This document shows positions 5,791 to 57,907 of a DNA stretch of 64,000 bases, in pieces (position 1 is the first letter of the stretch; each line of letters opens with the position of its first letter). The position numbers and the translations under genes are program-made. The notes under the pieces are model-generated. The model was given only the letters and a program-made list of their open reading frames with translations. It did not search any database and was not told where the DNA came from. This stretch comes from Antedon mediterranea (taxonomy: Eukaryota; Echinodermata; Crinoidea; Comatulida; Antedonidae): assembly GCF_964355755.1 (NCBI RefSeq), contig NC_092675.1, forward strand, positions 26,948,412 through 27,012,411. The letters run 5' to 3'.

Positions 5791-7151
5791 TCATACCACT
5801 GCGACGCAAGTACGCGTCATCACTGGGCTTTCTACAAAAGATGATTGTTCGCCACGTTTGATTACGTATACTACTGCTTTTGCGGCAGGTACCAGTTTAG
5901 TAGAGCAGCCACACGCTAATCCACTTTCACAAACATTACTTGAACATGTCGACTCGTAAAATAATTGCTTCTTTACAAATCCATTACGAATAGATGGCTA
6001 TAAAACGAGAAATAAAAATAGATACGTTAAATAGGCCTACAACACAACATCCTTCATTTGCAAAACCTCTTGCTTGTGAGGCACAGATGATGTTTTTTGA
6101 GAAAAAAAAACTAACCTGTGCTATGTAAACGAGATCACCTCGTTTGTTATAGGAAAGAAATAACATCTTGTTATCGTCCCGATTTACTCTACACACGCTC
6201 GTGCCAGGTTGAGCTGTCGGCGTTATTTCACGACGTTTTCGTCGTAAAGGTTTGCCGCCAAAACTAAGAGATGGAAAAGATACAGTTTCTTCATATGCAA
6301 CTGAAACGGAACTTGACTGCCTGTATAATAAAAACATACTTTTGATGTAAACCTTATAGGAGGAATAATAATTTAGGTATAGGAAGCAGTCACCACGTCA
6401 ATTATAGAAATCTGTAGTTAAATTGGTCGTCAGCAATTAACGCTGTTTTGTTGTCTAAAGCTGTATAAGTCAGTCAATGGTTAGGCCTAAATACTGGATA
6501 GAAGCAGTTTTCAAATAGTGTAAATTTTATTTTCTTTAGCTTTTGCAGAGGTGGCATATTATTTAGAGAGGTTAAGTTTATACATAAGTCTTTGTTTTAT
6601 CTCGAAGTTATATTCAAGATTCTACAAAGACGGAAACAGAAAAAAAACCCCATTTTTGGACTTTCTAATTATGTTCCGACTGTATCCAAATTGGGCTCTA
6701 GTAGTGGGATCATATAATTAAGGCGATGTAATAGGCTCTGAATGATTTCTAAAACCTATTATTTGAAATCTCAGAATATGTTCTCCAAATCAAAATTTAA
6801 AGCAAAACAATAAAATAAGTAAAAATAGTTATTTTTTATACTAACGTACATTGTTGATTCTTGGCACGTTCCAACATCATAAGGATTTTCAAAGCTTCCA
6901 TTGAATCGATCAGCCAGTGCATTGAGCTGCGTATCTGTCAGGTGTATAGGTGGTTCCTGCATTTCAAATACACATTTTTCTCGTTGTTCACAAGGTAATA
7001 GTTCTAACACTTCAGCGATGTTCAACAGTTTCTGTCTTTGTGCGGGCGTTAATTCGACATTCCGTTGACTATCACAGGTTCTTTGACAATTGACAAGAAT
7101 GATATTAAACATTATCATTATAATTACAACGATTCTTGAAGATACGACCAT
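5791..7151 (-). CDS. Small secreted proprotein family, member M1
   Basis: Three exons on the minus strand: 7151-6850, 6320-6116, 5997-5791 (237 codons before TGA). The start at 7151 gives a signal peptide (MVVSSRIVVIIMIMFN); an in-frame ATG further upstream would add a second hydrophobic stretch and is less likely. Exon 1 carries the family prodomain core LTPAQRQKLLN ... LELLPCEQRE ... PPIHLTDTQ. Exon 2 is longer than in the sisters (205 against 94-133 bases) and has a strong basic site RRKRR about 15 residues before the first mature cysteine (TSVC). Exon 3 has ESTCSSNVCESGLACGC and a last cysteine near the end (TRTCVAVV). The mature part has six cysteines. The exon-1 donor GTACGT was chosen over an overlapping GTTAGT because only it keeps phase 2. 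Function unknown; the layout is that of a furin-processed secreted ligand. Most diverged of the three minus-strand members. Confidence 0.85.
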
Positions 7152-9641
7152 CTTGATGTGAAAATGAAAACAACAAATGTGATAAAAACACACTGAACTC
7201 AATGAATAAGTTAAGATTAACTTGGTTTATAAGTTTAGTTTTGATGGTTAAAATGCATTTCCTCCGGTAATTACGAAAGGTTATTGTAAGATTAGGAATA
7301 CACAGACCCCGCGATTAAGTTATTACAGCTAGAATAAAAGAACATATAATTTAAAGGAGAAAGAAATGTTTTCTATCCGTTCATAGAAGGATTTGGATAT
7401 TCCTTCCCTAGATATGCTTGCGGTTTTCTTACATTTAAAATGTTATCATAAAGAAGAGGGTATAACACGTGGAAGAATGGAATTTCACCCAAAAATAACA
7501 AGCCAAAAATTAACAAAGTAAATTTGTTTTGTATTTGAATCAGGCAATATACTATAATACTTTTTATTCAAGTAAAGTTAAGTAAATTACTTTTTTTTTT
7601 TAATTAAAATACAGTACATTGCAAAATAAAAGATCAATTAATATTGATATAACACCTTTTAACCTCCAATGACGGTTGGTATTTAATTCCATTTCCGTTT
7701 TGAATATATCAAACCGGATCTTTAAAACAATTCAAATTCAGTAATTTGAATTTAGTAATATATCAAATATAACGTATAATAACAAGAAGTCATAATTAAT
7801 CGTTCACAATTATTTTATGATATGTATTATTTTCCTTCGTCCTAAATAAATAAAATACAATTATTATAAATATTACTGTACTTTTTCATTAACCTTTTTA
7901 CTAATATCTGAGTAAAATAAGTAACTGCCCCACCCTTCATTTCAATCCGTGTAATTTCTAATCATTCTCAATTTCGTCGTCGTTCGCTTTTCTGAAATAG
8001 GCCTAACCATCTTCTTATGACATTTGGTAGTATTCCATTACTTCCAGTTGATATTATAATAGGCCTACTACAAATTTTTTTAAATTTTTGAGATCATCGT
8101 CAACCTTTAACCAGACATATGTCCTAGTATCTATTTTTTTTTCTTTTTTTTAAAGACTTTCGACTACCTTTAGACTGCCTCTATAGTATGGTCTTTTTGT
8201 ACCTATCAAGAACTGATGGAAAATGTTGACCATTATGTTTCGAAGGTGCATCATACATACATGTATATGTGTGAATTTTAGTCAATTATCAGTAATAGGG
8301 CCTATATTCAATTTAATACCGTCAGAAAGAGTGACTTGATTCTATTACCATTATATAATATCATGCATAGGCTTCTTGCCCTCATTATAACCAAACCTTC
8401 CAGAATTAAGAATTTGATAGGTGTAGCACATGTGATTCTGATCACGGAACTTGCCTATACTGGACAATCTGCCAATCCACACTCATGTTGATTTGTTCAA
8501 TCAATGACCATGTATGTAGATTATAATTTGAATGCGTGCTCTAATTTTGAGTAAACAGTTTAATATTAGGTCCTGTTACTGGATCATAAATGCATCAAGC
8601 TATAGCACCTATTATTACCTTGGATCAAGTTCTTAAGACCATTCATAAGTACCCGATTTCTACAACCACAAAGTTAGGAGTTTACAAAAAAAATAACCAT
8701 CCATAATTACGTTTAACAGAAGCAGCTATAGATGGAACCATTTTATGACAAAATAAACATTCTTTAATTGTTATATATAAATATAATATTGATAAAATAA
8801 AAGTTAAATTGTTCAAAATTAGCTGTAATTGCTGAATCTCTATGTTAATTTACTATATTTATATAATCATTTAGAATTTATCTTAAGCTTATATATTAGT
8901 AAATTACGATACCTAAAACGTTTTAAGATTTAAATAGAGAATAAAAACCAGTAAACATATAATACTATCTAGCTAATTCACAAAACATATGTTATTATTT
9001 CTCCATGTTAATTTACTATATTTATATAATCATTTAGAATTTATCTTAAGCTTATATATTAGTAAATTACGATACCTAAAACGTTTTAAGATTTAAATAG
9101 AGAATAAAAACCAGTAAACATATAATACTATCTAGCTAATTCACAAAACATATGTTATTATTTTGAATTTTTCAAAATAAATCCCTTTTATACGATAATA
9201 TTAATTGTTTGTTTACTGTAAAACTACTTGAAAATGGCTTTACTAAAGTAAATAATTAATTCCTAAAACATATTGGGTCTTATTGCGAGAATAACACATC
9301 TGCTGTTTCTATCTTATAACATTTTTCAATCAGTTTTGTAATATTATCATACAATATTACACATTATTGTTCTAAACTGCTTCTCCCATTCAACGTACAC
9401 ACTAAAGTTTATTAAAACTAAAAAATAAATAATTTACAAATTATAATTTTATTTCAGACATAGTCTTTCGTAAAATGGTAAACATACTTAACTTTGAAAA
9501 TACGTTTCATTAAATAATACTTTTAAACAGACAAAAATGAAATAATGGGAACAAATTGTGTAAAGTGTAGTTTCGGAAGATGGACACTGTGAATGAATGT
9601 TCATCGTGTCTATTTTGAAACGTACCTGTGCACGTGTCGAA
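7152..9641. other. AT-rich intergenic region between M1 and M2
   Basis: No exon of any recognisable gene seen on either strand. It holds poly-A/T tracts, several AGGCCT motifs and one clear 163-base tandem duplication (listed separately). The promoter of M1 should lie next to 7151, but I see no convincing TATA element. Confidence 0.5.
8838..9163. repeat. 163-base tandem duplication, two near-identical copies
   Basis: The segment starting at about 8838 (TGTTAATTTACTATATTTAT) repeats at about 9001 with almost no differences over 163 bases, ending in ACATATGTTATTATTT in both copies. The near-identity implies a recent event. No coding content. Confidence 0.9.
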
Positions 9642-9897
9642 GGCATGGTTAAACGCCTGCCATAAACGCGTCATCACACAATCTAAGTTGACGAACGGAT
9701 TAGTTGAACGCCTGCCATAAACGCGTCATCATACTATGTATGTTGACGAAAGGATTAGTTGAACGCCTGACATAAACGCGTCATCACACAATGTATGTTG
9801 ATGAAAGGATTAGTTGAACGCCTGCCATAAAGGCGTCATCACACAATGTATGTTGACGAAAGGATTAGTTGAACGCCTGACATAAACGTGTCATTAC
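9642..9897. repeat. 55-base minisatellite derived from the 3' coding end of M2
   Basis: About four and a half head-to-tail copies of a 55-base unit, with clear unit starts at 9697, 9752, 9807 and 9862 and a more diverged copy before. Each contains GGATTAGTTGAACGCCTG(A/C)C. The last copy (from 9862) is the real stop codon and C-terminal codons of M2 on the minus strand, so the array is an amplification of coding DNA into the 3' flank. Confidence 0.9.
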
Positions 9898-11259
9898 GGT
9901 TTGTTCTGAAAATGTACCTGTGCCGTCTCTAATCAAGTACACAACGCACGTTGAGGAAGGGATTAGTTCGGTAGAGCAGCTGCAAGTAGATCCGACACAT
10001 TCAGTGTCTAAGCAAGTTGATTCGTAGAAGAATTGAGCCATTTGGAAACCATTTGCAGATGTGGGCTATCAACAAATTAAAAAAAAAGTTTCGATTTAAA
10101 AAAAAAATTTTAATCATTGGATTATTATACTGCTTATTGAAAGTAAACATGAACTAAGAAATATACAGATATTTTTTTGTCCGAATCTGCTCTAACTTAT
10201 TTTGAAGGACTATAAGACTAATATTCGTACATCATACACTTCATAAAAATAATTGGTGTTGATTCTAGAAATGATTACCTGCGGAATGTAAACAAGCTCC
10301 CCATCTGTGTTATAAGCAATAAACAATTGTTGGTTATTTTCCACAACAGCCCGACAGACAGACGTTCCAGCCGTCTGTCGACGTCTTCTGCGCATTGGTT
10401 GGTATTTTCTAAAAGTAATAAGTGTTAAAGTTAACTTTAAATTATATGCATAAAAGGGCGTAAATAATGTGATAATGCTGAGAATTTATAGAGATTTAAA
10501 GGTAGGCCTGCAGCTGAAAAAAATAAAAGTCAACCAAGTGGTCTCTACCATCAACGCAATGACAGTGTATGAAGAAAATAATTAAACCAATCTTTACTTT
10601 AATCCAGAAAAAATAGTAATCTTTTTAAATAATATTTTGTGTTTATATGAAATGAACTACTTTTACTTAATAATGGAAACTACTACAAAAGGCAGCTTAC
10701 AAACAATTATTTTACAAACACATATCCACATATCAATGAATACACAATAATAAAAACTATAACGATTAGATTATAGTTTTTGTTTAATATATAAATTCAT
10801 CGGCTCTTTGTGGAAGTGGTATGAATTCTTAAGACAACAATTATAAGTGTATATAAGGCTTTCATGAAATAAATAAGTGATGCAGAAGAACCATATTTTG
10901 AGCCTTCTACATGCCGGGAAGAGATTTATGCTAGGCCTTCCAGAAACTTACTCTTGTACTTGTTCAACACATTCAGCAATATCTACAGGGTTTCGAAAAC
11001 TTCCTTTGAAGCGTTGGGCTAAAGCAACAATCTGGGAATCCGTAAGCTGTATAATAGGCTGCGTCAGATTTAGCATACATTCCAATCTCTCGTCACATGG
11101 CAAGCTATCTAGATAGTCTGCAAATATTGTTAGCGTGTTCATTTGCTAGGTTGTTAGTTCAACACGCGGGAAAACCGAAGTGGTCTCAGTACAACAACAA
11201 GCATAGCTTCCATGCGCGAAAATTACAACCAACGCCAAATACTTCAGTAAGTATATCAT
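9865..11259 (-). pseudogene. Secreted proprotein family, member M2, with an in-frame stop in exon 1
   Basis: Three exons, minus strand: 11259-10952, 10408-10279, 10065-9865. All splice sites and phases match the family. Exon 1 begins with a signal peptide (MIYLLKYLALVVIFAHG) and CCC, then reads PRVELTT and a TAG at 11148-11146, where the paralogue M3 has GAG in ELTNEQKQQL. After the stop the frame stays open: YLDSLPCDER, LTDSQIVAL, a basic run RRRRR in exon 2, and GFQMAQFFYESTC with ECVGSTCSC in exon 3. The mature domain would have seven cysteines. A single base change therefore silences an otherwise intact gene. It could be a young pseudogene, a segregating null allele, a read-through stop or a sequencing error. 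About two-thirds identical by eye to M3. Confidence 0.8.
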
Positions 11260-12309: not shown

Positions 12310-13650
12310 TTATGTAAATGCATTACATCTACGGGTCATTATGGTCTGCTGTGTAAATGTATTTGTGTTCCCCTGAATTACATGTACAATGCATGTTGAA
12401 GATGGAATAAGGTCAGTGGAGCAGCTACACGCAGGACCATCGCACCCAGCATCCAAGCAAACCGATTCGTAGAAAAACTGTGCCATTTGAAACCCATTGC
12501 CTGTTGTAGGCTGTAGAAATAGAAAGAGTGTTTGACTTCATTAATAAATGAAATGAATGTTTTTGTTTAAATTATGTTAATAATTTATATTAGACCTATA
12601 CGTAATAAAGTTTGGTTCCAACTCTTGCCCGCAAGGAGATGACGTATGCGCAACGCAAGTGGGTTGACCAATCACAAACGAATGTTTGTATGATCCATCG
12701 CGTCGTGATTGGTAAATTTACTTAGCGGCGCGCTTAAGTTCTTGCGTTTCGTCCTAGTGGGAACCAAGCCTAAGCCTACTGCTTGTTGAAGTACTGTGTT
12801 TTAGTGAATGCGGTACCATGTACTTACCTGTGGAATGTACACAAGTTCTCCATTTTTATTGTAAGCAACAAATAGCATTTTATTATCCTCCACAGTTGCG
12901 CGGCACACTGGAGTTCCATCGGTTGCTCGACGTTTTCTGGATGGTCGAGGTTGTTCAATTCTATTAGATAATAAAAACAGAAAAAGCAAATTCAGTTTGA
13001 TAAATTAGTTTTAAACAACAATGTAGACCACACTAATGCATTTCAGTCTGCAAAAATGTTTTGAACAAACTTTAAGTTTAGAAAGAAAAGTTCGGCAGTG
13101 CATCAATTTCAGTGAATGAATTATAATACCTTTTTATTCAATTTAAAGAGACACAATGAGAGAAATAATCTGCTGTTTTTAGTCTACACTAGATAACTCG
13201 GAGTTTACAGACTAAAAGTTGCTATTGTAGACTTCTGCAGTTTGTCAACTGATTTACATCAAACCTTTTGCTAGGCTAGTTTTAAAGAATTTATCCAGAC
13301 AGTGGAAACATTCGCTAAAGTAAAGCTAAGTAAAGTTTGATTATAGCAACTCACATTGGTTCTTGACATGGTCCAACATCGGAGGCTTCCTGGAAACTTC
13401 CACCATAACGCTGAGCTAAACCAACCATTTGTGAATCCGAAAGTTGTATAGGTGGTTGTGTCATATTGTAGGTACGGTTCATTCGTTGATCACATGGTAA
13501 ACTTTCCAAAAAATTCGCCAAGTTTATCAGTTGCTGTTTTTGTTCGTTCGTTAATTCAACTCGTGGAAACACCGAAGCAGATTCCGAACAACAACAAGTT
13601 GCATAACTTCCATGTATAAATGTTAACATCAAAATAACAACCTTTAACAT
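12310..13650 (-). CDS. Small secreted proprotein family, member M3
   Basis: Three exons, minus strand: 13650-13355, 12960-12828, 12510-12310 (209 codons before TAA). Signal peptide MLKVVILMLTFIHGSYA, then CCC and the prodomain VELTNEQKQQLINLANFLES-LPCDQR, N-glycosylation sequons (NRT, NMT) and PPIQLSDSQ. Exon 2 encodes a strong basic site RPSRKRR directly before DGTPVC, the first mature cysteine, and ends KNGELVYIPQ. Exon 3 encodes GFQMAQFFYESVC, C-x4-C-x4-C-x-C, then STCIVHV and a final cysteine in MTRRCNAFT. Seven mature cysteines would leave one free for dimerisation. The cleanest intact member of the minus-strand group and the template for recognising the lesion in M2. A TATA-like TTTTATAATT lies about 25 bases before the ATG. 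Confidence 0.9.
12608..12772. mobile_element. MITE family A, copy 1 (in intron 2 of M3)
   Basis: Terminal inverted repeats of the type AAGCTTGGTTCCCACTAG, with inner CCAATCACAA motifs facing each other and alternating ACGC/GCGT runs. The same structure occurs at 26637, 45178, 48815 and 62784. No ORF. This copy is the most diverged. Confidence 0.8.
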
Positions 13651-14836: not shown

Positions 14837-15694
14837 TCGCGTGGACGCGACTCAATAGTTCACTATGTCGGTCGGTCGGTCTGTCGGTCTGTCTGTCGGT
14901 CCGATATCACTATGCGGTTTATCGCTTTTCTGTACTTTTTGAACTATTTTGATGTACAGACAAGTTTTAATTATGTCGGTCGGTCTGTCGGTCGGTCGGT
15001 CGGTCGGTTGGTCGGTCCGGTATCACTTTGCGTTTTATCGCTTTTTCTGTACTTTTTGAACTGTTTTGATGTACAGACAAGTTTTAACTATGTCGGTCGG
15101 TCGGTCGGTCGGTCCGGTATCACTTTGCGTTTTATCGCTTTTTCTGTACTTTTTGAACTGTTTTCATGTACAGACAAGTTTTAAAGTACTTTTCTGAGAC
15201 TTCTGTACATTTCTGAGACTTCTGTACATTTATAAGACTTATGTACATTTCTGATACTTTTTCTAAGGCATTACATTTCTAAGTTGTTCTGTCACTTTAA
15301 GTTATTATATACGGGCTGTTGTGTCATTTAATATTCTATCTAAGCTTCCTAACAGAAAAGAGTTCACTGTGCTTGTTTATTAAAAGAGCAAGAACAACAG
15401 CAAGAAACAGCAAGAGCAAAGTTTATATATTATATAACATTTTATTCATGCAAAACAAGAAACAGCAAGAGCAAAGTTTATATATTATATAACATTTTAT
15501 TCATGCAAAACAAGACAGTTTGCAGCATGGTCAGAGTAGTAAGGCCAATGTGTAAAGAGTTCAAAACCTCTCTCTGATCTGATGTAAACATGATCAATAA
15601 GTCCCCCCTTTTTCATGGGTTGGATATTGCACAGACTGACTTTTTGAAAGTTCATTTTTTTCTGAGAGCACGCGAATTATGGCTGTTGGCCTTG
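14837..15694. mobile_element. GGTC-rich non-autonomous element with internal 117-base tandem repeats
   Basis: Begins AGTCGCGTGGACGCGACT (hairpin), then TTCACTATGTCGGTCGG, and ends GCACGCGAATTATGGCTGTTGGCCTTGTT. Inside, a unit of roughly 117 bases (CGGT run, TATCACT, TTTATCGCTTTTTCTG, TGTACAGACAAGTTTTAA) is repeated three times at about 14870-15185. An open frame through it (14912-15184) is low-complexity and not a gene. Confidence 0.7.
15401..15510. repeat. 55-base tandem duplication
   Basis: Two near-identical copies, starting at 15401 and 15456, of CAAGAAACAGCAAGAGCAAA followed by a TTTATATATTATATAAC stretch. They lie inside the preceding mobile element. Confidence 0.85.
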
Positions 15695-17197: not shown

Positions 17198-20100
17198 ATG
17201 TTGTCTATTTTCCAAATGCTATTGTGTTGTGTGTCAATACCGGGCACCATGTCTTGTTGGAGTACATCAGATTGCCCCGTGTGCCCCGTGACAGACTCTG
17301 ATGGAGAACAGAAGCCAACTACTACACAGCCCAGCTTAACTTTGATCTCCGGTGTAGAAGCATCACCACCCATACTCTCGAATGAACAGTCAGACATCCT
17401 TCGACAATTAGGTGACCAACTAGACAGCCTGTCGTGCGAAGAATTAGAGAATACTATCTATAATACCACACGACTTCCTTTACCACCGATAGAGTTAGAT
17501 GTCAGCCAGGCCATGATTCTCATAGACATTTTTCCTGAACTTAAAAAAACCAATGCAGATAGGCCTACAGAAAACGAGATAAATGCTTGTAACGAGTTTG
17601 AGTAAGTTTAAATATTAATTCATAATAAATATAAAACAATTATAAATGTTGAATGTCGACAATTCAGGCTATAGATTTACACTATCATTCATTATTAAAT
17701 TTGGTATGTTTTCAAGTATTTATTTATTTGTTTAGTTTATGTATTACGATGCCTGAATTCTTTAAAACAATGTAGGCCTAACTGTATATATCTTTCTTTT
17801 TTACAGAACTGACTTTTTGAAAAGTGTTAACGCCGCAAACGTGTGTGCATTTGATACCGCAGATATAGCCCTTAACCTTGCGCTAGATAAGCATGGATTC
17901 CCCGTTTATGTTACACAGGTAGGCCTCGCTAAGTAGTTTTCTCACCCACTTCTCTTGATTTAGACTGATAATAATAAAGCCGAGTGTTTCGATATTTGAG
18001 GGAACTTTCGATTTTCGACGACCGACTATTTACTCTAAAATACATGTTATTAATGGGATACAATGTTAAATTTAAATAAAATTAATTTTTGTTAACCAGA
18101 AACAAGTTCAATATAGGCCTAGAAATATTATTAAAAATATCCTTCGTGAAAACGCGTGAACACCACGTCCGGTAGGCATTATTGTTTTTCCTATAAGGTT
18201 AAGGCTGAAACTATAGAGGGCCTGAATCCATACATGAATGTTCATGATGTGACGGAAACCCTGGAAATAATTTTTACGCAGTTTAACCGAAAATGATCCG
18301 TGCAAAAACACAATAAAAATAAAAACGTTATAACATATTATGTTGCTTATGTTTCTGAAATATTTATTAAATGAATATATATTACAAATTAAAACTCACA
18401 CATAACCTTACAATCAATAGCTATGCCTACATATTAACGGATTCTGCCAAAAAAGAAAGAAAATTAATTCAGCAACGCGACAACGTCAGGCTAGGCCTAT
18501 AGCTAGCGTACGATGTTCGTACGCTACCGCTCTTTACCAGCTAGGCCTACAAAACTAAGCCCAACTAGGCCTAGAAACGTCTACGAGAGAAATTCCGACG
18601 CGAGCTACTTAGGTAGTGTATTGTTTTTCTCTTTTGTCATAATAGAACGCACACTGATGACAAGAAATTATCTAAGATTTAATGTTTTTAAAGTTATATA
18701 ATTTATATGCATTATTTTTACAAAACGCCACAAATTGCAGGTCTAGTGTCTTGAACATCGAGAGAAAAAGAGTACAGTAACTTACTTCGAAGAATATCAC
18801 AAGAATGAGTAATCCGCGATTTTCCCTGTAACATAACAGTAATATTGTCCATGTGGAAGGGCGCCGCCATAAGTGAGGATGTATCTGGGATATATACAAC
18901 TTTTTGTGACGGTTTCACTAATCAAAGGCTGGACCACCGGTAGTATTTTCATGATAAAAAATGTTATCAACTACATGCCAACATCATGTTAAATGCTGTT
19001 TGGATATTTAATTGTTTGTTGGATGCAATTTATTTAGTAAAAACTGCCGTATAAAAAATTCGCTTTATCAACCGGGCGCTACGATAGCGTGACCGGGCGT
19101 GTTGGTGTTTACGCGTTTTCACGAAGGATAGTTTAATAATAATATTCCTATATTTAACTTGTTTCTGGTAAAACAAATAAATGTTAATGAAATTTAACAT
19201 TTTATCCTATTAATAACATGTATTTTATACTAATTTGTATCATAAAAACAATACTTAATTTACCGGGCGTAGGGTAGTACGCGGCAATGGTAAAGAATAG
19301 GCCGTGCTGAGTAACGATTCGTTGATTTTTGGTGTTGTTGTGTTAGGCCTTTTTTGTGAACTAATTTAGCATGTTAGTAAATAATTGTCTGTAAAAGTGA
19401 ATGTACACTAGGTTGTTAATAAATTTGTATTATGAAATAGTTTACAATTGCAAAATATATTATCATAATTCTATTTAATGTGACATGTATAATATCTATC
19501 AAATCAAGTCTTATTTGGTATGTATACATCCGCCCTTATGAGGGCGGGCATCACTCTCTGGAGCTCTCTGTTGCAAATTTCTCATGCAAAAATCGCGGAA
19601 TACTCATTTTTGTGATATATATTCTTTGCTTACTCCGTAAATCAGACAGTGGGTTTTGCCAGTATCACGTCATGAGCTCAGACATGCATCATGAATATGC
19701 ATGATATATGAACGCCCTCTATAGTTTCTGTCTTAACCTAATAGCAAAAAAAATAATACGCCCGGTAGCGCCCGGTTGATGAAGCAAACTGTTTATTCGG
19801 CAGTTTTTACTAAATAAATTGCATTAAAACAAACAATAAATATCCAAACAGCATTTAACATAATGGTGGCATGACATTTTTTTATCATAAAACATTATTA
19901 TAGCATATATCTCAGCCTAAGCCCAATCAAATCATCCTATCCAAATCTTTAGTCTGAGCCCACTATAAGCAAGTTGCTCAGGCGAGTAAATTCTGACAAT
20001 GTGCTGCGTAGGCCTAGCTAGGCCTATAAACTTTTAATTTTAATTTTTAATTGATATTTCCAAAAGATTTTGTAATAGCGAACATGTTTTAGTTGCCATT

Positions 20101-20749
20101 TCTCGAAAGAAAATGTTACGCTTGATCGAACGAAAACACGGCAGGTCAGTTTGTTGTGTGACCCGCACGAGGTCATCCCATGCATATTTAATGAGTTTCG
20201 TCGCGACAGACTCAAGCGTGTGTATTGTAGTGTATATCCTATTTCGTTTTCTATTCCTTATATGTATCAGATATACAGTATGTAAGTTATTTTCAGAAAT
20301 AAATTTGATCAAATCAAATCATCATTATGTTTTACTATTGTTTTTATAAGAACTTTTTTCTTTGTGGGTTTTTTTTGTGAGTCACCCTGCACCAAAGATT
20401 ATAATAAAGCGCCGTATTAATTTAAAAAAAGTTATTGATATTTTAAGTATACATTGGTAGAAGTATTTATTTAATCGAAGAATATTCGTAATGTGTAACG
20501 TAAATTTCATCTTTAACAAATTTAGTTTTTTTTGTGTTATATTCACACTCACAGGACACGCGATACAACCTTCTACAAATGTTTCAAGAAAACCTTTGCT
20601 TGAGTACTGACTGCGGGGGAGGCTTACAATGCTCTTGCAACAATCAATTGACACACAACGCAAGGGCTGTTGTAAGTTATCTGAAAGGGAATGATTTCAG
20701 ATTCTACAAAGCAGACATACAGTTACGTTCTTGTTCAGGTTTTGTATAG
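17198..20749 (+). CDS. Small secreted proprotein family, member P1 (lost basic site)
   Basis: Exons 17198-17601, 17807-17918 and 20555-20749 (236 codons before TAG). Signal-like start MLSIFQMLLCCVSIPG, then CWSTSDCPVCPV, a Thr-rich stretch, and the prodomain LSNEQSDILRQL ... LDSLSCEELENTIYNTT ... PPIELDVSQ. Exon 2 is TDFLKSVNAANVCAF ... LALDKHGFPVYVTQ. Exon 3 is MFQENLCLSTDCGGGLQCSC with a last cysteine in RSCSGFV; six mature cysteines. Compared with P2, exon 2 lacks six bases, removing the KR of the dibasic site (SKKRSVN becomes LKSVN), so cleavage may be lost or changed. Exon 1 has a 15-base in-frame difference (VTDSDG). Intron 2 is 2.6 kb because of repeat insertions, against 0.58 kb in P2. 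Confidence 0.88.
18080..19910. mobile_element. Nest of inverted mobile-element remnants in intron 2 of P1
   Basis: Several segments occur twice in opposite orientation. GAAACAAGTTCAATATAGG ... CCTTCGTGAAAACGCG (18095-18160) is complementary to 19115-19180. The block AATGCTGTTTGG ... AGTAAAAACTGCCG ... CAACCGGGCGCTAC (about 18945-19085) is complementary to about 19760-19905. AAACTATAGAGGGC occurs at 18208 and inverted at 19708. The segments are not in one collinear palindrome, so this is probably two nested or rearranged non-coding elements. None of it is present in the corresponding P2 intron. Confidence 0.65.
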
Positions 20750-24947: not shown

Positions 24948-26400
24948 ATGTTGTCTATTTTCCAAATGCTATTGTGTTGTGTGTCAATACCGGGCACAAT
25001 GTCTTGTTGGAGTACATCAGATTGCCCCGTGTGCCCCGAAGAACAGAAGACAACAACTACACAGCCCAGCTTAACTTTGATCTCCGGTGTAGAAGCATCA
25101 CCACCCATACTCTCGGATGAACAGTCAGACATCCTTCGAGAATTAGGTGATCAACTAGACAGCCTATCATGTGACAAATTGGAGAATACTGTTTACAATA
25201 CAACACAACTTCCTTCACCACCGATAGAGTTAGACGGCAACCAGGCGATGATTCTCAAAGATGTTTTTCCCGAGCTTAAAAATAACAACACAGGTCAAAA
25301 TAACCAGACAAATGGTTGTAACCAGATTGAGTAAGTTTAAACATCTATTAAAATAATAATATAAACAATAACAAAAAAAGTTGAAGTGAGACGTATGAAA
25401 TACAAGCATTAAAAAACCCTCCGAATATACCATAGAACACCTTATAGCACACGTTATTTGAAACAATGTTATATTTATAATGAATATGGTACTAAAAAAT
25501 GTTGTTTTACAGAACTGGGTTGTCTAAAAAACGGAGTGTTAACGCCGCAAACGTGTGTGCATTTGAAACCGCAGATATAGCCCTTAACCTTGCGCTAGAT
25601 AAGCGTGGATCTCCTGTTTACGTGGCACAGGTAGGCTACGCTAAATTTTAGAAGTTACGCTAAATAGATGAAAATAATATTTTTAGTGTGTATATCAGCC
25701 TATTCGTTTTCTATTCAATTTTAGATGTATCGTATATTTTCAGAAAAAAAAAAAATTCAAATCAAATCATCATTATGTTTACTATTTTAAAGAACTTTAT
25801 TCTGTGAGTCACCCTGCACCGAAGATTATAATAAAGCGCCGTATTAATTTTAAAAAAGTTAATCATATTTTGAGTATGCATAGGCCTAATGCATAGGCCT
25901 ACTCGTGGTTTGAAATCTTTGTTTACTTTCGCTCGCGACGATTTTCCAGACGAAATGTAATCAAATAAATTTACCTGTTAATTGCTTAAACTTTTTGTTT
26001 TTGGCTCGAATTTTCGACCTAAAATGAATAACTGTAATATTACATTGATATGGCCAATTTAAATTTAGAATATTTTGACCTTCATTGTTTTTGTTTCAAA
26101 GGACAATACATCTTTAATCAAAGAATGTCCGTAACGTGTACGTAAATTCCAGAAATCTGTAAAATTTTCATCTTTAACAAATTTGTTTTTTTGTTATATT
26201 CACAGAACACGCGATACAACCTTCTACAAATGTTTCAAGAAAACCTTTGCTTGAGTACTGACTGCGGGGGAGGCTTACAATGCTCTTGCAACAATCAATT
26301 TACTCACAACGCAATGGCTGTTGTGAGTTATCTGAAAGGGAATAATCTCAGATTCTACCAAGCAGACATACAGTTACGTTCTTGTTCAGGTTTTGTATAG
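24948..26400 (+). CDS. Small secreted proprotein family, member P2
   Basis: Exons 24948-25330, 25513-25630 and 26206-26400 (231 codons before TAG). Duplicate of P1: same signal-like start MLSIFQMLLCCVSIPG and prodomain LSDEQSDILRELGDQLDSLSC ... YNTTQ ... PPIELDGNQ. Exon 2 reads TGLSKKRSVNAANVCAF and so keeps a dibasic KKR just before the mature cysteine domain, which P1 has lost. Exon 3 is nearly identical to P1: ENLCLSTDCGGGLQCSC, AVVSYLKGNN, final RSCSGFV; six mature cysteines. Compact introns (182 and 575 bases) probably show the ancestral structure. Function unknown; secretion and processing are inferred from the signal peptide and basic site. Confidence 0.9.
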
Positions 26401-38276: not shown

Positions 38277-38326
<50 letters not shown>

Positions 38327-38487: not shown

Positions 38488-38542
<55 letters not shown>

Positions 38543-38668: not shown

Positions 38669-39544
38669 TTACAATTTACACATATTTGCTTGAGCGTCTT
38701 TTAAAACCTTCCGATTCGTTCGGATGTATCTAATATAACAGTTAGAGGACCATCTACCCATGGTTTGTACTACATGGTCTTCTACACCTGCTGCAGCAGC
38801 AGATGTTGCAGCCCCTATCCTAAATGAATGACCTGAAAAATTGCGGTTATCTATCCCACTTCTGGTTAAAACTTCCCTTAAAAGCATTAGAAATTGTTCC
38901 CTTGATAACGGATCGTGTGTTGATTCGTTCTCGACGAACAACGGGGCTGAATAGGGTGCACCGTTACACAATCTAAGGGCAATGTATTTAGACATATTAT
39001 GGACGGGATATAAATTTTTGTTCTCAAAGATTGTTATATCGATTCCCAATCTAAAGGGGTCCGTTTTGGATGCCCTCAGATGTAAAACATATAATTGGCA
39101 ATCTGGGCTAAAGGTAATATCGCTAATTCTTAAGTAATCGTTACAGGAAGTCTTTCGTTTACATGTGAACTCACCACATCTTAAAAAACCATAAAACGCT
39201 AACTTGAACACACACTGAATCATAAGGTCCATAAACGGGGAAAACACACCCCGCAAAAGTACGTTACACATTTTTGTTAGTACATCTGCAGTAATCGGTA
39301 AACGTTTTTGTTGATTATTGTTCTGTGATTTTTTAATTCCGCGAAGTATGTATTGTAGTCTCTCTGTTCCCAATGTGATATCTTGATGACCCGCTTTGAT
39401 ATAGTGAAAGCGAATTCCTGCCAGGTAGAGTTTGATTGTATGGAGTTTTAGGTTCAGTACTTTCTGACAGTGAGTTACAAAATAAATGAGGTGTCCCTCA
39501 ACAATTGGCGGAAGTCCTGATTTCGGCAGAATCATACCTGACAT
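38669..39544 (-). CDS. Tyrosine recombinase of a Crypton-like mobile element
   Basis: An uninterrupted 291-residue ORF. Catalytic landmarks of the tyrosine-recombinase family are present: arginine I in FLRCGEF (about residue 122), the H-x-x-R box in GHSFRIGAAT (about residue 240), then GRWSSNCYIRYIR with the tryptophan/histidine position and the candidate nucleophilic tyrosine. N-terminal residues (about 1-80) resemble a SAM-like core-binding domain. Such enzymes cut and rejoin DNA through a 3'-phosphotyrosine and move Crypton, DIRS and Ngaro elements. The start codon abuts the conserved right end of the element; the frame is open for a few codons upstream, so a longer or spliced N-terminus is possible. 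The intact frame suggests recent activity or selection. Confidence 0.88.
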   Translation of the reverse strand: MSGMILPKSGLPPIVEGHLIYFVTHCQKVLNLKLHTIKLYLAGIRFHYIKAGHQDITLGTERLQYILRGIKKSQNNNQQKRLPITADVLTKMCNVLLRGVFSPFMDLMIQCVFKLAFYGFLRCGEFTCKRKTSCNDYLRISDITFSPDCQLYVLHLRASKTDPFRLGIDITIFENKNLYPVHNMSKYIALRLCNGAPYSAPLFVENESTHDPLSREQFLMLLREVLTRSGIDNRNFSGHSFRIGAATSAAAAGVEDHVVQTMGRWSSNCYIRYIRTNRKVLKDAQANMCKL

Positions 39545-39790
39545 ATAAATATGTCGCCTAGTCTTTTAAGTTTAATTTATTAGTACGGTAACCTTGTGTA
39601 CAATACCAATTCTCCTTAAAAAAGTAGACTTAAAGGAGGCAGTACCAAACCCATCCATCAACTGTCACTTGTTGAGGTCACTATAGTGTAGGTATAATTA
39701 TCTATTGATATTCAATGCCCTTGTAGTGGAGTCCGGGTTACTCCAGATGGTATTGTGTATAAACTATAATTTAGTTTCCCAAATTTGCTG

Positions 39791-40187
39791 ATTAGTTAAT
39801 ATTAGAAACTCAATATTTAAACAACTTAAAGAAGATCTATACAACAATGATTTGCATAAAATATGGGACTTATTCATGTCAAGCTCACATGAACTTAAAT
39901 ATCACCTTTTTTTTGACGACCTAGAAATTGATGAAGAATATCAAATCCAATGTATAAACAATATTAACTATGTATTAGCAAGTAACATATTTGACAAATA
40001 TTGTAAATTATTTTTAACAACTGCATGGAAAGAACGCAACGAAATTTATAATATCCGTCCATAACACAATCTTTTACTTTTCGCTCAAATGTATTGAATG
40101 TATTTTTAGTCGCGTGGAAGCGACTCTATAGTTCACTATGTCGGTCGGTTGGTCGGTCTGTCTGTCTGTCTGTCGGTCTGTCTGTCG

Positions 40188-40222
<35 letters not shown>

Positions 40223-48200: not shown

Positions 48201-48223
48201 CGCAACACTTAAGCACTGATACA

Positions 48224-50025
48224 ATGATTGCTGTTAGTTTGATGTTGTTTGCACTGATTCAGTGCTCCCAATCATGTCGGAGCACAACTGATTGCACTGA
48301 AACAGACGTGATTCCAAATGATCCAGTTGTGACCGCTCCTTCGTTGACTGTTGAGCAAGCAGAAATACTGAACAACCTTTATCAAGAACTTATGCAGCTA
48401 CCATGTGATGAACGTCGGGAGAGAATCTATAACACGACAGTGCCGCCGATAAATTTGACCGAAAGCCAAGGGCTTGCACTCTTAGATTTGTATCCTGAAT
48501 ATTTTAAAAATAGAAGCGACACCGGTGACGTTTCCAACAAAACTGGAAGTTCATTTCTCAGTGAAAGGGCGCAAGTTCTATCCATTATTGTTTCTATTTC
48601 TAATTATTTTAATTGAACATGTATTCTGAAATATGATATTTTTGAAAAGGAAACCCCACTGATTTATCATTAGAACAAACCTTAAGCAATTAGTGGAAAC
48701 TTTAGTAAACAAATTCGAACTGCTGAATGAATTATAGAACAACATGCCGACAGCTATTAGTTATAACTTAGCAAGGCCAACATGAAAATAACTACAACGT
48801 AACGTAACGTACATAAGCGTGGTTCCCACACTAGCGACGCAACGCAAGGACGTAACACAACGCAAGTGAATTGACCAATCACAAGCCATGGCTTATTCGC
48901 TTGTGATTCGCTTGTCATTGGTCAACACGCTTGCGTTGCGTTCACGTCCTTGCGTTACGTTCTAGTGAGAACCAAGCTTGACGTGCATATCATATAATAA
49001 TCATAATCATCATAATCAAATAATCATCATATAACGTACAACGTAACGTAATCGTAATCATCATAATCAAATAATCATCATATAACGTACAACGTAACGT
49101 AATCGTAATCATCATAATCAAATAATCATCATAACGTACAACGTAACGTAACGTAACAAATAAACATTTTTTTTTTCAAATTTCAATTAATTTCTATAGA
49201 ATTAATTAGAATAAAAACACGTACATCCCTAAACAGACAGGTAATGATGTATTTAACTCAAGCCAACAATTTATCTTTGTCTTGCACCTTTATATTTTTA
49301 TTTTGCACCTTTATATTTGTAAATTTTTAAGATGTTTGTCCTTTTTATGTGTACATTATCATCTTAATATTGTTTTAATTCAGCCTTGTGCTGCGATTAC
49401 GGTATAGTGAATAAATAAATGAATAAATAATGAATAAATAATTTTTTTTAAGTAGGCCTAATTAGTTTACAAAAGTAACTTTCATGTTTTCATTTTTTTT
49501 TCACATAAATGAAGGGCGACTGTTGCTAACATATGTCCATTTGACTCTATGCTAGTTGAATATAATCTGGCTTTGGATGGAAATGGAGACCCAGTTTACA
49601 TTCCTCAAGTAAGTAGGCTATACTGACAACCCGAGTTGCTCTTTAAAACCACAGTTGTTTAATGACCACAATAAAATTGTAGTTGGTTGTTTTATATTTG
49701 AGACTTTAACTTTATTAGGCCACCGTCACGACTAATTATAAACTTTTTATTCGAAAACCCCAACATAATAAGTGTCGGATATGTCTTCTTTTTTTTTCAG
49801 ATTCCAACTGAAAATCCACCATTTTACGTACTCGATCAAACGTTTCAAGAAGACAAGTGTGCATATGTCGAATGTTCAGGCCAATCTTCTTGCCAATGTT
49901 TGGAAGAGCTTGGGCACACTGATCGCGCAGTCGTTAGTTATCTAGATGTACCACCAGGAACAAGTGCATTTTATGTCACAGACATAATGCTAATAGATTG
50001 TTTAGCATATGATATAAATGCCTGA
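48224..50025 (+). CDS. Small secreted proprotein family, member P3 (GC splice donor)
   Basis: Exons 48224-48570, 49515-49608 and 49801-50025 (221 codons before TGA). Signal peptide MIAVSLMLFALIQCSQS, then CRSTTDC and the prodomain LTVEQAEILNNLYQELMQ-LPCDERRERIYNTTVPPINLTESQ ... DLYPEYF. The exon-1 donor is GGGC|GCAAGT, where P4 and P5 have GTAAGT. Only this boundary keeps phase 2, and GCAAGT is the usual form of a GC-AG intron, so the gene can still be functional; if not spliced, the frame would run on to a stop at 48616. Exon 2 gives SERAATVANICPF and LALDGNGDPVYIPQ. Exon 3 gives FQEDKCAYVECSGQSSCQC, AVVSYLD and IMLIDC; six mature cysteines. The basic site is reduced to ER. Intron 1 holds a MITE, a tandem repeat and a LINE tail. 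Confidence 0.85.
48815..48979. mobile_element. MITE family A, copy 4 (in intron 1 of P3)
   Basis: AAGCGTGGTTCCCACACTAGCG at the left and CGTTCTAGTGAGAACCAAGCTT at the right, with opposed CCAATCACAAGC motifs. Closely similar to the copy at 45178. Confidence 0.9.
48996..49160. repeat. Tandem repeat of about 54 bases
   Basis: About three copies of AATCATCATAATCAAATAAT followed by CATCATATAACGTACAACG and TAACGTAATCG. It adjoins the MITE inside intron 1 of P3. Confidence 0.85.
49275..49435 (+). mobile_element. LINE 3' tail
   Basis: TGTTTTAATTCAGCCTTGTG, a C+G-richer CTGCGATTACGG, then (AATAAATG)n at 49408-49435. Form and simple-repeat tail are typical of a 5'-truncated LINE. No coding part. Confidence 0.5.
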
Positions 50026-51092: not shown

Positions 51093-51176
51093 AATGTCAT
51101 ATTACAATTAGCGTCGTAACAGAAGTGTTCAGATTTGCCTAACTAACGCTTTCGTTTCAAGCTGTCGTCGAACGAG

Positions 51177-51694: not shown

Positions 51695-51848
51695 CCCATT
51701 GTGACACATGGGATTCCTTGTGTGGTGGTAGATGTGTTAAGATACACATTGTACTACCTTGATCATACTGTGATGTCGGTTAAAAGTGTCATAAAATATA
51801 AATTGTGGTTTGGCTCAATATAATATTATTTATTCGTGTCATTATCTA

Positions 51849-51967
51849 GAATTTACTTGGAAACTATTAAATAACCACTCATGATACAATGATTTCCGTT
51901 AGTGGAAATGTTGTTGGCATTGATTCACTGAATGCACTCTGCTGAAACAAACGTTGCTGAACCGGTT
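51849..51967 (+). pseudogene. Relic first exon of the proprotein family
   Basis: TTGGAAACTATT ... GATACAATGATT(T)CCGTTAGT ... GAAATGTTGTTGGCATTGATTCA ... CACTCTGCTGAAACAAACGT matches the promoter, leader and signal-peptide region of P3 and P4, with deletions, a frameshift soon after ATG and no downstream exons. It stops where a GGTC-rich element (51968-52741) is inserted. A dead sixth plus-strand copy. Confidence 0.75.
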
Positions 51968-52741: not shown

Positions 52742-52799
52742 TTTTAATCAAATTTGTTCGATTTGTATTAATAAAGAATGGTATAATATAATCATGGAA

Positions 52800-53046
52800 A
52801 AACTATGCCTATTTAGAAGTAAATATAATTCCTCCAAGGTATAACAGTACAATTGTTGTACCGATGCCTACATTAACACACTATTTTTAACTATATTACA
52901 AAACCAATTGTTGTTGACGTATAATGTTCTCATCCATAATAAACGAAAGTAATAAAAGCCTAATATGGCATTTTAAGTCACCATCCGTCTACTCGGAAAC
53001 TATTTAAGGTGATACCGCAGTGCTACAAAGACATACCACTGATACA
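52800..53046 (+). promoter_or_regulatory. Conserved upstream region and core promoter candidate of P4
   Basis: About 240 bases alignable with the region before P3 (47985-48223): CCAAGGTATAA, CCAATTGTTGTTGA, TCATCCATAATAAACG, CTAATATGGCATTTTAAGTC and TATTTAAGG (53001), which lies 46 bases before the ATG as in P3. The shared block ends close to the GGTC-rich element. Confidence 0.55.
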
Positions 53047-54655
53047 ATGATTGCTGTTAGTTTGATGTTGTTTGCACTGATTCAATGCTCCCTATCATGT
53101 CGGAGCACAACTGATTGCACTGAAACAGACGTGATTCCAAATGTTGCGTCCGCTCCCTTGTTGACTGCTGAGCAAGCAAAAATACTGAACAACCTTTATA
53201 AAGAACTTATGCAGCTACCATGTGATGAACGTCGGGAGAGAATCTATAACACGACAGTGCCGCCGATAAATTTGACCGAAAGCCAAGGGCGCGCGCTCTT
53301 AGATTTGTATCCTGAATATTTTAGAAGCGACACCGGTAAAATTTCCAGCAGCAACACTGAAAGCTGTTTGTTTCTCAGTGAAAAGGCGTAAGTTTCTTTC
53401 TATTATTGTTTACATTTCCTATAAATGTACTAAGTTATTATTTTATATGACCATAACATTCTCTAATATGATACTACCCTACTGATTTGTCTGAAAACTG
53501 CTGATTAATCATAAATAGAACATTTTTTTTTTGGAACAAGAATGCAAAGAATTAAATGTTAATGTTAAATGTTAAAACATTAATTAATATATGGTACGTC
53601 CCTAATAACAGACATGAAATGGTGGTGTATTTAACCAGAGGCAACAGTTTTGTCTTAGGTTTAACTAAATAGCAATTTTTTTTAAAGTAGGTCTATTGTT
53701 TACATTGGTCATTTTGAGGAGTATATTCACTACAAGCTATGTTTTCAGTTAGGCTCCTCCACTTTATATACGTTATTTGTAAAGGGAAATAAATTATATA
53801 AAAAACTTTCATATTTGTTTGTACTTAATGAAGGGCGGCTACTAGTAACGTATGTTCATTTGAACCTATTGAAGTAGTTTATAATCTGGCTTTGGATGCA
53901 AATGGAGACCCAGTTTACATTCCTCAAGTAAGTATACTGACAACCCGAGTTGTTATTTAACCAATTGACTGCCAACTTCGCGTTTATCATTGTCCGCAAA
54001 TGATCTAGGCCTATGTCTAGTAGGCTACTACTACTATTATTAGCTAGCTTGGCCTAGACCTTGCTAGCTGTACAAATATTGCTAAAAACCTTATAATAAA
54101 AATACATTTGCATGTAGAAATGTCTGATGACCATTTGTTTTATTATTTATTTGTTCAAATTATCAATATTTTATAAGTACATTTGTAAAATAATACTAAC
54201 CTGTCAAAAAATGTGTTTATTCTCGCATTGATAAAATGAGCTGACAAGCAGTACCTCTCAGAAATGTACTGGCAGTACAAAACAATGGGCCAATAAACAT
54301 CAGGCAGTCAATGCATGGTTAAACACCAGAGACATTCTCTATTGGCCGCGGATCACGAACAATTCGAAAACCCCAACCTAATAATCAATAAATGTATTTC
54401 TTTACTTAACAGATTGTAACTGAAAATCCACCATATTACGTACTCCATCAAACGTTTCAAGAATACTTGTGCGCATCTGACCAATGTGCTCCAGGCCTAT
54501 CTTGTCAATGTTTGCACGAGCTTGGGCACAGTGATCGCTCAATCGTTAGTTATCTGAATGCAACACCATCTGAATGTGCATCAGGAGGGCTAGGATGTAG
54601 GTTTTATGTCCAACCTATAATGCTAACAGACTGTTCAGCATATCTTATTATGTAA
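53047..54655 (+). CDS. Small secreted proprotein family, member P4 (extra cysteine pair)
   Basis: Exons 53047-53387, 53834-53927 and 54413-54655 (225 codons before TAA). I use the ATG at 53047 (MIAVSLMLFALIQCSLS); the in-frame ATG at 53020 would put MLQRHTTDT before the signal peptide. Prodomain LTAEQAKILNNLYKELMQ-LPCDERRERIYNTT. Normal GTAAGT donor. Exon 2: EKAAATSNVCSFEP ... LALDANGDPVYIPQ. Exon 3: FQEYLCASDQCAPGLSCQC, SIVSYLN, then an insertion TPSECASGGLGCRF carrying two additional cysteines not present in P3 or P5, and LTDCSAYLIM; eight mature cysteines. The basic site is weak (EK). Closest to P3. Confidence 0.9.
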
Positions 54656-56019
54656 ATGCCAACCAATTGTTCAGCTTGGTATATACTTTTTAGAACGATC
54701 TACATTTTTAATTTCAATGATTAGACCATGGAAGAAAAAATATTTTTGTTTTCCCTCCATGATTAGACCCAGTGTGTTTTTATTTTACCTAAGTTGTTTC
54801 TTTGGATATTGAATATAAACAATATGATATGTTTCATCATATTAGGCTAAATTACTTTTAAACAACTTAACACTACACAAATAAGATAAATATGAATAAT
54901 AAATATAAAATGTTGTATAGGTCACATAATCTTCAAATAAAGCAATAACGATGTTATTGTTCTTCTTGATCATGACGTCATTTGACTGGACAGTGTTATT
55001 AGGATGGAACATTTCTGATTTATGTTTTCTGTAGGAAAACGTATATATATCGTAGATCGTTATCGTCCGTAGTAGCCTATAAATGTAATGACAAAAAAAT
55101 ACGATGTGCCCATATATGGACATGATGATGTCATATCACTACCATATTTGGGTATATCACTGCCATATTTGGGCACATTACACTTATTTTGTCAAACTAG
55201 TTTGATAGTGTAGACAGATCTTAAGAAAGTTTGTGATCAACATACCCAGTAGCTTGCTAGATAAAGTGGTTTAAATAATATATAATAAAATAATATATAT
55301 ACATCTAGTTTTTGGGCTATCCTGGTCAAAAGTTATGTTATTTTTCTGCTTTTATTGTTTATTCTTATAACGGTACAATTTTATACAATTTCTAACGTTA
55401 TTGCTTGCAAACTTCTTGTTGATATTGAAATCATTGTTTTGTCAAATAAATGAATTAACACTACTTGAAAATCGAGTAATAATGTTTGATTATAAGATAG
55501 GGCCTATATACAATTTGCAAAATTGCTTATGCGAAATATGATATGAACTTTGACACAGGCAATAAGACTGAATCCGGAGGGTAGATCATTCTTTAAAGGA
55601 AAACGTCACTTAGCTAACTGCATGCCTTTCAGTATGCTATAAAAACAGTATTTAATGAGTTTAACAGTTTTCGGAACGAAACGAAACGTCACTTTCAGTA
55701 TGCTATAAAAAAACAGTATTTAGTGTGTTTTCGAAACATCATTATAATAATAATAATTTTATTTCTGTCTTCACCTTTAATGAAAATGACAACCACAACA
55801 GAAGTGTTTGGAAATCCTTAGTCATATACGTTAACTATTGTTATCACCGAATTCACATAAAATAAAGTCTTCGTCTTAAAAAAATAGCCAGGCCTATTAG
55901 TTAGGATCAATTGTGTCATTACTAGTAGATTAGAACTTTTATTTTAGTTTATAATGAACAAACACTACTATTCTTTTCTGGTCCAATTCTCCATGCCTAG
56001 AAGAAATAAAGAAACTTTT
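54656..56019. other. Intergenic region between P4 and P5
   Basis: No exon seen. It contains a truncated MITE family B copy (55089-55220), a short tandem repeat of TCAGTATGCTATAAAAACAG (55633 and 55697) and an (ATA)n stretch near 55746 that may be a reversed LINE tail. Confidence 0.45.
55089..55220. mobile_element. MITE family B, copy 1 (one arm truncated)
   Basis: Inner sequence GATGTGCCCATATATGGACA and right arm TTTGATAGTGTAGACAGATC match the copies at 57545 and 59716. The left outer arm CTATCAAACT is missing. Confidence 0.6.
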
Positions 56020-56110
56020 CCGCATTCCGATGTAAATCGGAAAACATTACTGCCAGATGAATGTTATTATATTCGTCATTTAAGATATGGGTTTGATGAC
56101 GCAGCCATCT
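56020..56110 (+). repeat. Segment shared by the upstream regions of P5 and P3
   Basis: GCATTCCGATGTAAATCGG, AAAACAT, a GATGAATG/GAGGAATGCA stretch and TTTG(G)ATGACG recur at 47139-47260. It lies about 0.4 kb before P5 and 1 kb before P3, so it is either a regulatory element retained after duplication or an unrelated repeat. Confidence 0.5.
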
Positions 56111-56512
56111 GCATCAGTAAACGAAAGTAATTTTATAAAAAAAAAGCATCGCACAAAATACGTCAGCTATTATTAAGGCTGTTAATATTTTTGATTAAAT
56201 ATTAACGGCTGATAACTCATTAGATCACTCAGGTTAATACGTCATTATCATAGAGCTTCATGAGATAATACGCTTAATGTTCAAACTGTAAAATTAATTA
56301 TAGGGTATAACTATATAAATAATTTAATTGTACAGTAGAAACATCTCCCTCTATTGTTTTAATCAATGAAAAAGACAGATCCTATCCAGGGGCACCCGAT
56401 TAATTACAAAAGCCTTATAAGGCATCTTGTGTCACGGCCTAGAATCTACTCGGAAACTATTACAGGTGTTGTAGGATTTGATGTGAGTATACTCAATTAC
56501 TGTAACTGTACA

Positions 56513-57907
56513 ATGATTGCTGTTAGTTTTATGCTGTTTGCACTGATTCAATGCTCCCTATCATGTCGGAGCACAACTGATTGCACTGAAACAGACGTGA
56601 TTCCAACTGATTCAGTTGTGAAACCTCCTTCGTTGACTGTTGAGCAAGCAAGAATATTGAACAATCTCTATCGAGAACTTATGCAGCTACCATGCGATGA
56701 ACGTCGGGATAGAGTCTATAACACGACGGTGCCGCCGATAAATTTGACTAACATCCAAGGGCTCGCGCTCTTAAAATTGTATCATGAATATTTTAAGGAG
56801 ATGAGTCATAATAACAAAACGGGAAGCTGTTTTTTCGGTAAAAGAGCGTAAGTAAGTTTTCATAATTGCCTCTTTATTTAGCATCATGTTGTTGGTGTCA
56901 TTCTAAATAATATATAATATAATATTAACACAATTTTTGTAGACCTTAGTTTGGTTAGATTTAACTTATTTTGTTTTATTTCACTTCAATGAAGGGCGGC
57001 CAATATTAACGTGTGTTCACTGGAGGTTGTCAACGTAACTTTGAATCTGGCTTTGGATGGAAACGGAGTGCCAGTTTACATTCCTCAAGTAAGTTTTATT
57101 GACACGCTAGGTCTTCTAACGAAATACTCTCATCTATATATAAATTATGGTTAATTCCTACATAGGCGAGCACAATGGAAAAAGAGAACGTCCTTCAAAC
57201 CTTTTTACCCGAGTCATTATCATTCCGAGAACCATTATCTACACTTCCGAGCGAAGTATATACAAGTAGGCTACTTAATCTGCTCAGCTACTGTAAACCT
57301 AAACTGGTATATATTAACTGATTTGACCTTTGTATAACACTTTTTAATAGGTACTATATAACTAATATGATTTTTTTCTTTAATTTTATTCAATGTTTGT
57401 CTCTTTATAAAGCATGAAATGCTTGACGCTTAAGAAATACCCACAGAATCCGTAATTATAGTTGTAAATATTTGAGACTGTACTTTATTAAGCTACCGTA
57501 TAATCATCACGTTGTAAACTTATGACGAAACCCAAACATAAAGCTCTGACTAAACTATCAAACTAATTTGACAAATAACGTAGTGATATGACATCATCAT
57601 GTCCACATATGGGCACATCACATTTGTTTTGTCACGTAAAGTTTGATAGTGTAGACAGAGCCTAATAAAGAATAATTGTCATTAACAGATTCCAGATGCA
57701 AAACCACCAGTTTACAAATTCAAACAAACATTTCAAGAATACAAGTGTGTATCTGTCGAATGTGCTCCAGGCCTATCTTGCCAATGTTTGGAAAAACTTG
57801 GGCACAATGATCTCGCAGTCGTTAGTTATCTGGATGTACCAGCTGGAGAGAGCGCATTTTATGTTAAAAAAATACTGCTAAATGATTGCTCTGCATATAT
57901 TATGTAA
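56513..57907 (+). CDS. Small secreted proprotein family, member P5
   Basis: Exons 56513-56847, 56995-57088 and 57689-57907 (215 codons before TAA). The ATG at 56513 gives signal peptide MIAVSFMLFALIQCSLS; the frame is open upstream to 56366, but that part lies in the leader. Prodomain LTVEQARILNNLYRELMQ-LPCDERRDRVYNTT ... LTNIQGLALLKLYHEYF. Exon 1 ends CFFGKR and exon 2 begins AAANINVCSLE, so a dibasic KR stands just before the mature domain. LALDGNGVPVYIPQ closes exon 2. Exon 3: FQEYKCVSVECAPGLSCQC, AVVSYLDV, LLNDCSAYIIM; six mature cysteines. Exon 2 is exactly 94 bases in P3, P4 and P5. Intron 2 contains a MITE family B copy. Confidence 0.9.
57545..57659. mobile_element. MITE family B, copy 2 (in intron 2 of P5)
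   Basis: CTGACTAAACTATCAAACT at the left, AGTTTGATAGTGTAGACAGA at the right (terminal inverted repeats), with TATGACATCATCATGTCCAC inside. 115 bases, no ORF. Confidence 0.8.

Follow-up and report, generated by a model that had tools for sequence, protein, structure and literature searches.

What kind of proteins do the eight small genes encode that lie side by side in this stretch of the Antedon mediterranea genome (contig NC_092675.1, positions 26,948,412 to 27,012,411; 64,000 nucleotides, hereafter the window)? A preliminary description had listed eight loci and a relic of small secreted proproteins and had matched them to no named family. Judged from the gene models, the family of predicted secreted proproteins is real, and it is unnamed in Pfam at the curated cut-off. 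We consider the cluster to be, probably, a divergent and tandemly expanded crinoid branch of the NGF/neurotrophin-Spaetzle cystine-knot superfamily, made up of secreted proproteins with altered cysteines. Kinship with the NGF superfamily is likely, though unproven. The genes do not qualify as members of the neurotrophin family proper, since they miss the Pfam cut-off, the six cysteines with a terminal C-x-C, the GCRG-type motif, and the single exon.

All eight loci, which span window positions 5791-57907, have three coding exons separated by a phase 2 and then a phase 0 intron, and their spliced lengths are divisible by three (630-711 nt including the stop; Table 1), just as had been proposed. 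Fifteen of the 16 introns are GT-AG, and the remaining one, in gene F, is GC-AG. Exon 1 carries a signal-peptide-like start and prodomain and is followed by the phase 2 intron; exon 2 holds the prodomain end, the cleavage site (where present), and the first mature cysteine, and is followed by the phase 0 intron; exon 3 encodes the rest of the mature domain, which intron 2 splits. A signal-peptide-like start, the prodomain core, and the C-terminal cysteine pattern were all recovered. The core (L-T-x2-Q ... L-P-C-D/E ... PPIxL) is kept in the seven aligned members; D and E read L-S instead of L-T and L-S-C instead of L-P-C. The pattern C-x4-C-x(4,5)-C-x-C...C is present in seven of seven aligned members and in B; as first described, it omits a further invariant cysteine, in the [VI]-C of exon 2, where the mature domain begins. 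That domain comprises about 94-110 residues. A neurotrophin-like prepro organization, with a basic site ahead of the mature domain, can be read from the sequences of A, B, C, E, and H, while the site is degenerate in D, F, and G.

Table 1. Gene models of the cluster and the premature stop in gene B (window positions; exons in order of transcription).
Feature	Span	Strand	Exons	Protein	Basic site	Mature Cys	Remark
Gene A	5791..7151	-	7151-6850, 6263-6116, 5997-5791	218 aa	RRKRR	6	
Gene B	9865..11259	-	11259-10952, 10408-10279, 10065-9865		RRRRR	7	frame open but for 1 TAG
TAG in gene B	11146..11148	-	exon 1				in-frame, codon 38
Gene C	12310..13650	-	13650-13355, 12960-12828, 12510-12310	209 aa	SRKRR	7	
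Gene D	17198..20749	+	17198-17601, 17807-17918, 20555-20749	236 aa	degenerate	6	
Gene E	24948..26400	+	24948-25330, 25513-25630, 26206-26400	231 aa	KKR	6	
Gene F	48224..50025	+	48224-48570, 49515-49608, 49801-50025	221 aa	degenerate	6	intron 1 GC-AG
Gene G	53047..54655	+	53047-53387, 53834-53927, 54413-54655	225 aa	degenerate	8	
Gene H	56513..57907	+	56513-56847, 56995-57088, 57689-57907	215 aa	GKR	6	

To place the mature domain, we aligned the eight genes jointly with neurotrophins and read the cysteine columns from this alignment. Every gene has a counterpart of neurotrophin Cys I, II, and III; Cys IV is matched in B and C only, where S-S-T-C stands against the S-S-E-C of the Antedon neurotrophin. 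The terminal cysteine of all eight genes lies one column before Cys V, on the column of the extra cysteine of Spaetzle-like proteins, and could correspond to either of the two, since a one-column shift can be an alignment effect. Cys VI is missing throughout. Beyond the knot positions there are two additional cysteines, the first five columns past Cys II and the second two columns past Cys III; G carries two others besides. A knot that keeps Cys I-V and loses only VI was overturned by this column-by-column readout. Shared with neurotrophins in a single register are Cys I, the G-x-x-V strand, Q-x-F-Y-E-x-x-C, Cys III, and the terminal cysteine. Because the cysteine set is altered, the disulfide pattern would have to differ from that of the standard knot, most of all in A and D-H.

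Three weak lines of evidence converge on NGF and the neurotrophins. In a Foldseek search with a structural model of gene C (pLDDT 60.7), neurotrophins took ranks 1-8 with E-values of 0.08-0.33. The hhalign score of the family against neurotrophins was equaled by none of 600 shuffles. Finally, the mature part of gene B matched Pfam NGF (PF00243) at 19.5 bits (E 0.0012; curated cut-off 27 bits), with the match ending on the same Cys IV that the joint alignment identified. The earlier statement that the family has no named match thus stands at the Pfam cut-off, and it is not supported as a claim that recognizable relatives are lacking. The Foldseek list also held PDGF-BB, another cystine-knot factor, at rank 14 (probability 0.01), which we did not take as support.

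A considerable set of results weighs against this kinship. In the Pfam scans, no family member reached a curated cut-off, gene B included. The other seven mature parts gave no NGF match, with C and D weakly matching DUF3954 (E 0.088) and Thioredoxin_7 (E 0.19) instead; exon 3 of A, B, and C alone gave no NGF match either, full-length scans of five of the eight members returned nothing relevant, and the cluster was missing from the matches of a genome-wide PF00243 search. HMMER profile searches of PDB, with the whole family or the mature parts of A-C, found no neurotrophin. With the Q-x-F-Y-E-x-x-C block masked, the hhalign score dropped to 12.2 (P 0.22) in an unchanged register. Subsets scored 11.1 (D-E alone), 17.8 (F-H), and 17.5 (D-H together; P 0.023), and exon 3 of D-H scored 8.6-13.8, within the noise of a 196-piece scan, so that D-H show no clear neurotrophin signal by themselves. 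The family did not match Spaetzle-like Antedon sequences by hhalign (12.4, P 0.17), whereas a control of neurotrophins against these same sequences gave P 5e-11, which shows that the method is able to detect kinship of this kind. The gene C model has a pTM of 0.59 beside its pLDDT of 60.7, with three of five models at 34-37. The gene E model failed (pLDDT 43.5), and its seven Foldseek matches included no neurotrophin (best E 5.6); we treated it as uninformative on fold. Three hallmarks of the neurotrophin family proper are likewise absent: there is no six-cysteine knot with a terminal C-x-C; in none of the eight sequences read does [KRL]-G follow a mature cysteine, which excludes the G-C-R-G-type motif; and the genes have three coding exons instead of one. 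No already described family that shares this exon plan gave a significant profile match, as the NGF match stays below the cut-off and the canonical neurotrophin is a single frame. The best PDB profile match for the whole family was LtpM1 (E 0.044), a single partial stretch across the border of prodomain and mature part.

These results bear most directly on the possibility that we are looking at an unrelated family of small cysteine-rich secreted proteins, for example antimicrobial or inhibitory ones, whose likeness to neurotrophins around one F-Y-E-x-x-C block is due to chance or convergence. The collapse of the hhalign signal once that block is masked, the lack of signal in D-H alone, the weak gene C model, and the failed gene E model are all what such a family would produce. 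We nevertheless think it unlikely, because a PDB fold search and a Pfam profile search, both unguided, each singled out NGF, and because the shared features listed above, from Cys I to the terminal cysteine, match neurotrophins in one register.

Less probable still is an NGF-fold protein without a signaling role, for instance a coelomic protein with a clotting or structural function, like horseshoe crab coagulogen. Coagulogen is a clotting protein, and its structure (1aoc) gave a weak match to the gene C model over 134 residues, with a low Z that tied with neurotrophins. We regard a divergent IL-17-like cytokine cluster as very improbable: the cysteine spacing of IL-17 differs from that of the cluster, and neither our Pfam scans nor the lists of fold matches contained IL-17. 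Both IL17 and Spaetzle (PF16077) were absent from the Pfam scans of the mature parts; IL17 was looked at up to E 10, where divergent members can be missed. In favor of a cytokine cluster, the abstract of PMC8353272 mentions large echinoderm IL-17 expansions.

Independent predictions support the gene models. We searched 5.8 billion proteins at E-values up to 10 with the family profile, gene C, and gene G, which returned three, one, and three matches, respectively, all from Antedon mediterranea. The seven proteins (P0001-P0007) are computational predictions, not observed transcripts, and the source records returned call them "uncharacterized protein." Four are identical letter for letter to our models (P0004 to C, P0001 to D, P0002 to E, and P0005 to G). 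P0003 (237 aa) equals gene A except at the junction of exons 1 and 2, where it has 19 more residues and one changed, which would put the gene A acceptor 57 nt upstream. P0007 (264 aa) equals gene H save for 49 extra N-terminal residues. P0006 joins exon 1 of F (48224-48570) to exons 2-3 of G (53834-54655); this fusion perhaps reflects read-through splicing or a prediction artifact, and it may be tied to the GC-AG intron of F. Gene B had no counterpart among the proteins returned. The search relies on shared five-residue words, and the family-profile query missed P0004 although it is identical to a row of the query; the absence of matches beyond Antedon is therefore weak evidence that the family is restricted to this genus. 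In the 18-contig genome assembly, the mature part of gene C gave eight matches, all inside the window (six in A-C, one in D, and one in E), a query that did not reach F-H. Among the papers listed by our literature searches, none reports a crinoid neurotrophin cluster.

The arrangement of the genes follows their relationships. In an unrooted tree with some long branches and two open forks, one supported split separates A-C (three genes, minus strand) from D-H (five genes, plus strand), and D-E then part from F-H. The strand groups are thus the two sides of the split, which agrees with the suggested expansion from a head-to-head (divergent) pair; as read from the sequences, such an origin fits. 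Mature parts are strongly constrained between A and C (dN/dS 0.13, with dS near saturation); between D and E the ratio is 0.49 (95% range 0.19-1.74). Pairwise comparisons among F, G, and H give 0.94-1.48, with ranges that include 1 (F-G 1.48, 0.83-2.99; F paired with H, 0.61-1.65; G-H, 0.50-1.86), so neutrality is not rejected and we do not claim positive selection there. In the prodomain, dN/dS is under 1 for the pairs D-E (0.41), F-H (0.40), A-C (0.43), and B-C (0.29), and not clearly so for F-G (1.34) and G-H (0.65). Mature ratios near 1 in F-H together with strong constraint between A and C would fit ligands that diverge in recognition. That the loci are chance open frames instead of protein-coding genes is practically negligible as an explanation: the models do rest on genomic sequence and predicted proteins, but eight loci share one exon plan, four models are identical to independently predicted proteins, and the mature parts of A and C are conserved as just described.

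The count of eight loci held up, the intactness of all eight and the ninth relic did not. Gene B, as assembled, is not an intact gene. Compared with C, it shows low dN against a high or saturated dS, which indicates long constraint on B; the stop is probably recent, an allele, or an assembly error. As for the relic, six-frame searches of the window with exon profiles yielded clear matches at the eight loci only, with the next best at iE 0.61 (39835-40041, plus) and iE 1.1 (9868-9758, minus), and blastn with the cluster exons gave zero matches outside the exons. We therefore rejected it. The second of these matches sits in a 55-bp tandem array of 4.5 copies (9648-9894) whose repeat unit comes from the 3' end of gene B.

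Pieces of ADAMTS flank the cluster at 1328-2398 (plus; the cysteine-rich end and spacer, both just under the Pfam cut-off) and 59181-59576 (minus; TSP1_ADAMTS, E 1.7e-11), and their opposite strands suggest two convergent ADAMTS genes. Within the cluster, 38672-39565 (minus) holds a tyrosine recombinase (phage integrase family) frame (E 7.4e-8), likely a mobile element, and the VGRSVGR units that recur in an open frame at 14837-15184 (plus) probably reflect a tandem DNA repeat.

If the cluster does belong to the NGF/neurotrophin-Spaetzle superfamily, its products may act as follows. The precursor would be exported and its prodomain then cut off at the basic site in A-C, E, and H, whereas the D, F, and G precursors may stay uncut or use another protease. 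Cleavage would release a small beta-hairpin domain, a putative ligand that is probably dimeric. Candidate receptors would be of the neurotrophin type (Trk/p75) or the Toll type. In our view, an immune or recognition role is at least as likely as a neural one, because the cluster is expanded and F-H change fast. A more specific proposal, which we hold tentatively, is that the genes form a third and as yet unnamed echinoderm NGF/Spaetzle branch beside the canonical and NT2 ones, whose re-plumbed knot has lost Cys VI, retains Cys IV in just B and C, and has two new cysteines flanking Cys III, as a fast-changing multi-ligand cluster serving perhaps immunity or self-recognition over nerve growth. 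On this view, the ancestral neurotrophin state would be approached most closely by B and C.

How does the cluster compare with known members of this superfamily? Antedon has one canonical neurotrophin (G000:C2:39933087-39933398), whose prodomain and mature domain share a single open frame, and three Spaetzle/NT2-like loci (together L009-L012, on C2 and C4), two of which lie about 6 kb apart on C4. Canonical deuterostome neurotrophins (PF00243), that of Antedon included, share with the cluster a prodomain, a basic site ahead of the mature part, [VI]-C, the G-x-x-V strand, Q-x-F-[FY]-E-[ST]-x-C (in A-C), Cys I-III in register, and Cys IV (in B and C). Unlike them, the cluster has three coding exons, lacks G-C-R-G-I-D and Cys VI, has lost Cys IV in A and D-H, carries two extra cysteines, and stays below the Pfam cut-off.

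The Spaetzle/NT2-like sequences resemble the cluster in other ways. The terminal cysteine of the cluster falls on the column of their extra cysteine, and the intron that precedes the Cys I exon of L012 can likewise be read as phase 2. In contrast, L010-L012 end in C-C-x-C where all eight cluster genes have a single terminal cysteine, the two that were aligned (S11 and S12) keep all six knot columns, hhalign finds no match, and the next intron of L012 follows Cys II in phase 2, whereas that of the cluster precedes Cys II in phase 0. The remaining comparisons draw on PMC2772990. According to this source, sea urchin has two neurotrophins: the first follows the compact vertebrate plan, and the second is multi-exon and groups with acorn worm sequences; Sp-NT2 of sea urchin and NTb of acorn worm carry an extra cysteine beside Cys V. 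Sp-NT2 and L012 are multi-exon like the cluster. Set against the two sea urchin genes, the crinoid cluster, if our interpretation is correct, would serve as a natural experiment on which bonds of the knot are expendable.

The same source describes an expanded set of Spz7 and Spz8 proteins in Daphnia. Both have additional cysteines in the stretch from Cys III to IV, and Spz7 has them between IV and V as well. As in our cluster, there are several copies of a knot ligand, some in tandem, with added cysteines; these are crustacean Spaetzle proteins that retain knot Cys I-VI, and we compared them by description only (PMC2772990). If the kinship is true, eight tandem genes with changed cysteines would represent the neurotrophin fold reused as an expandable ligand family, as Spaetzle has been in Daphnia.

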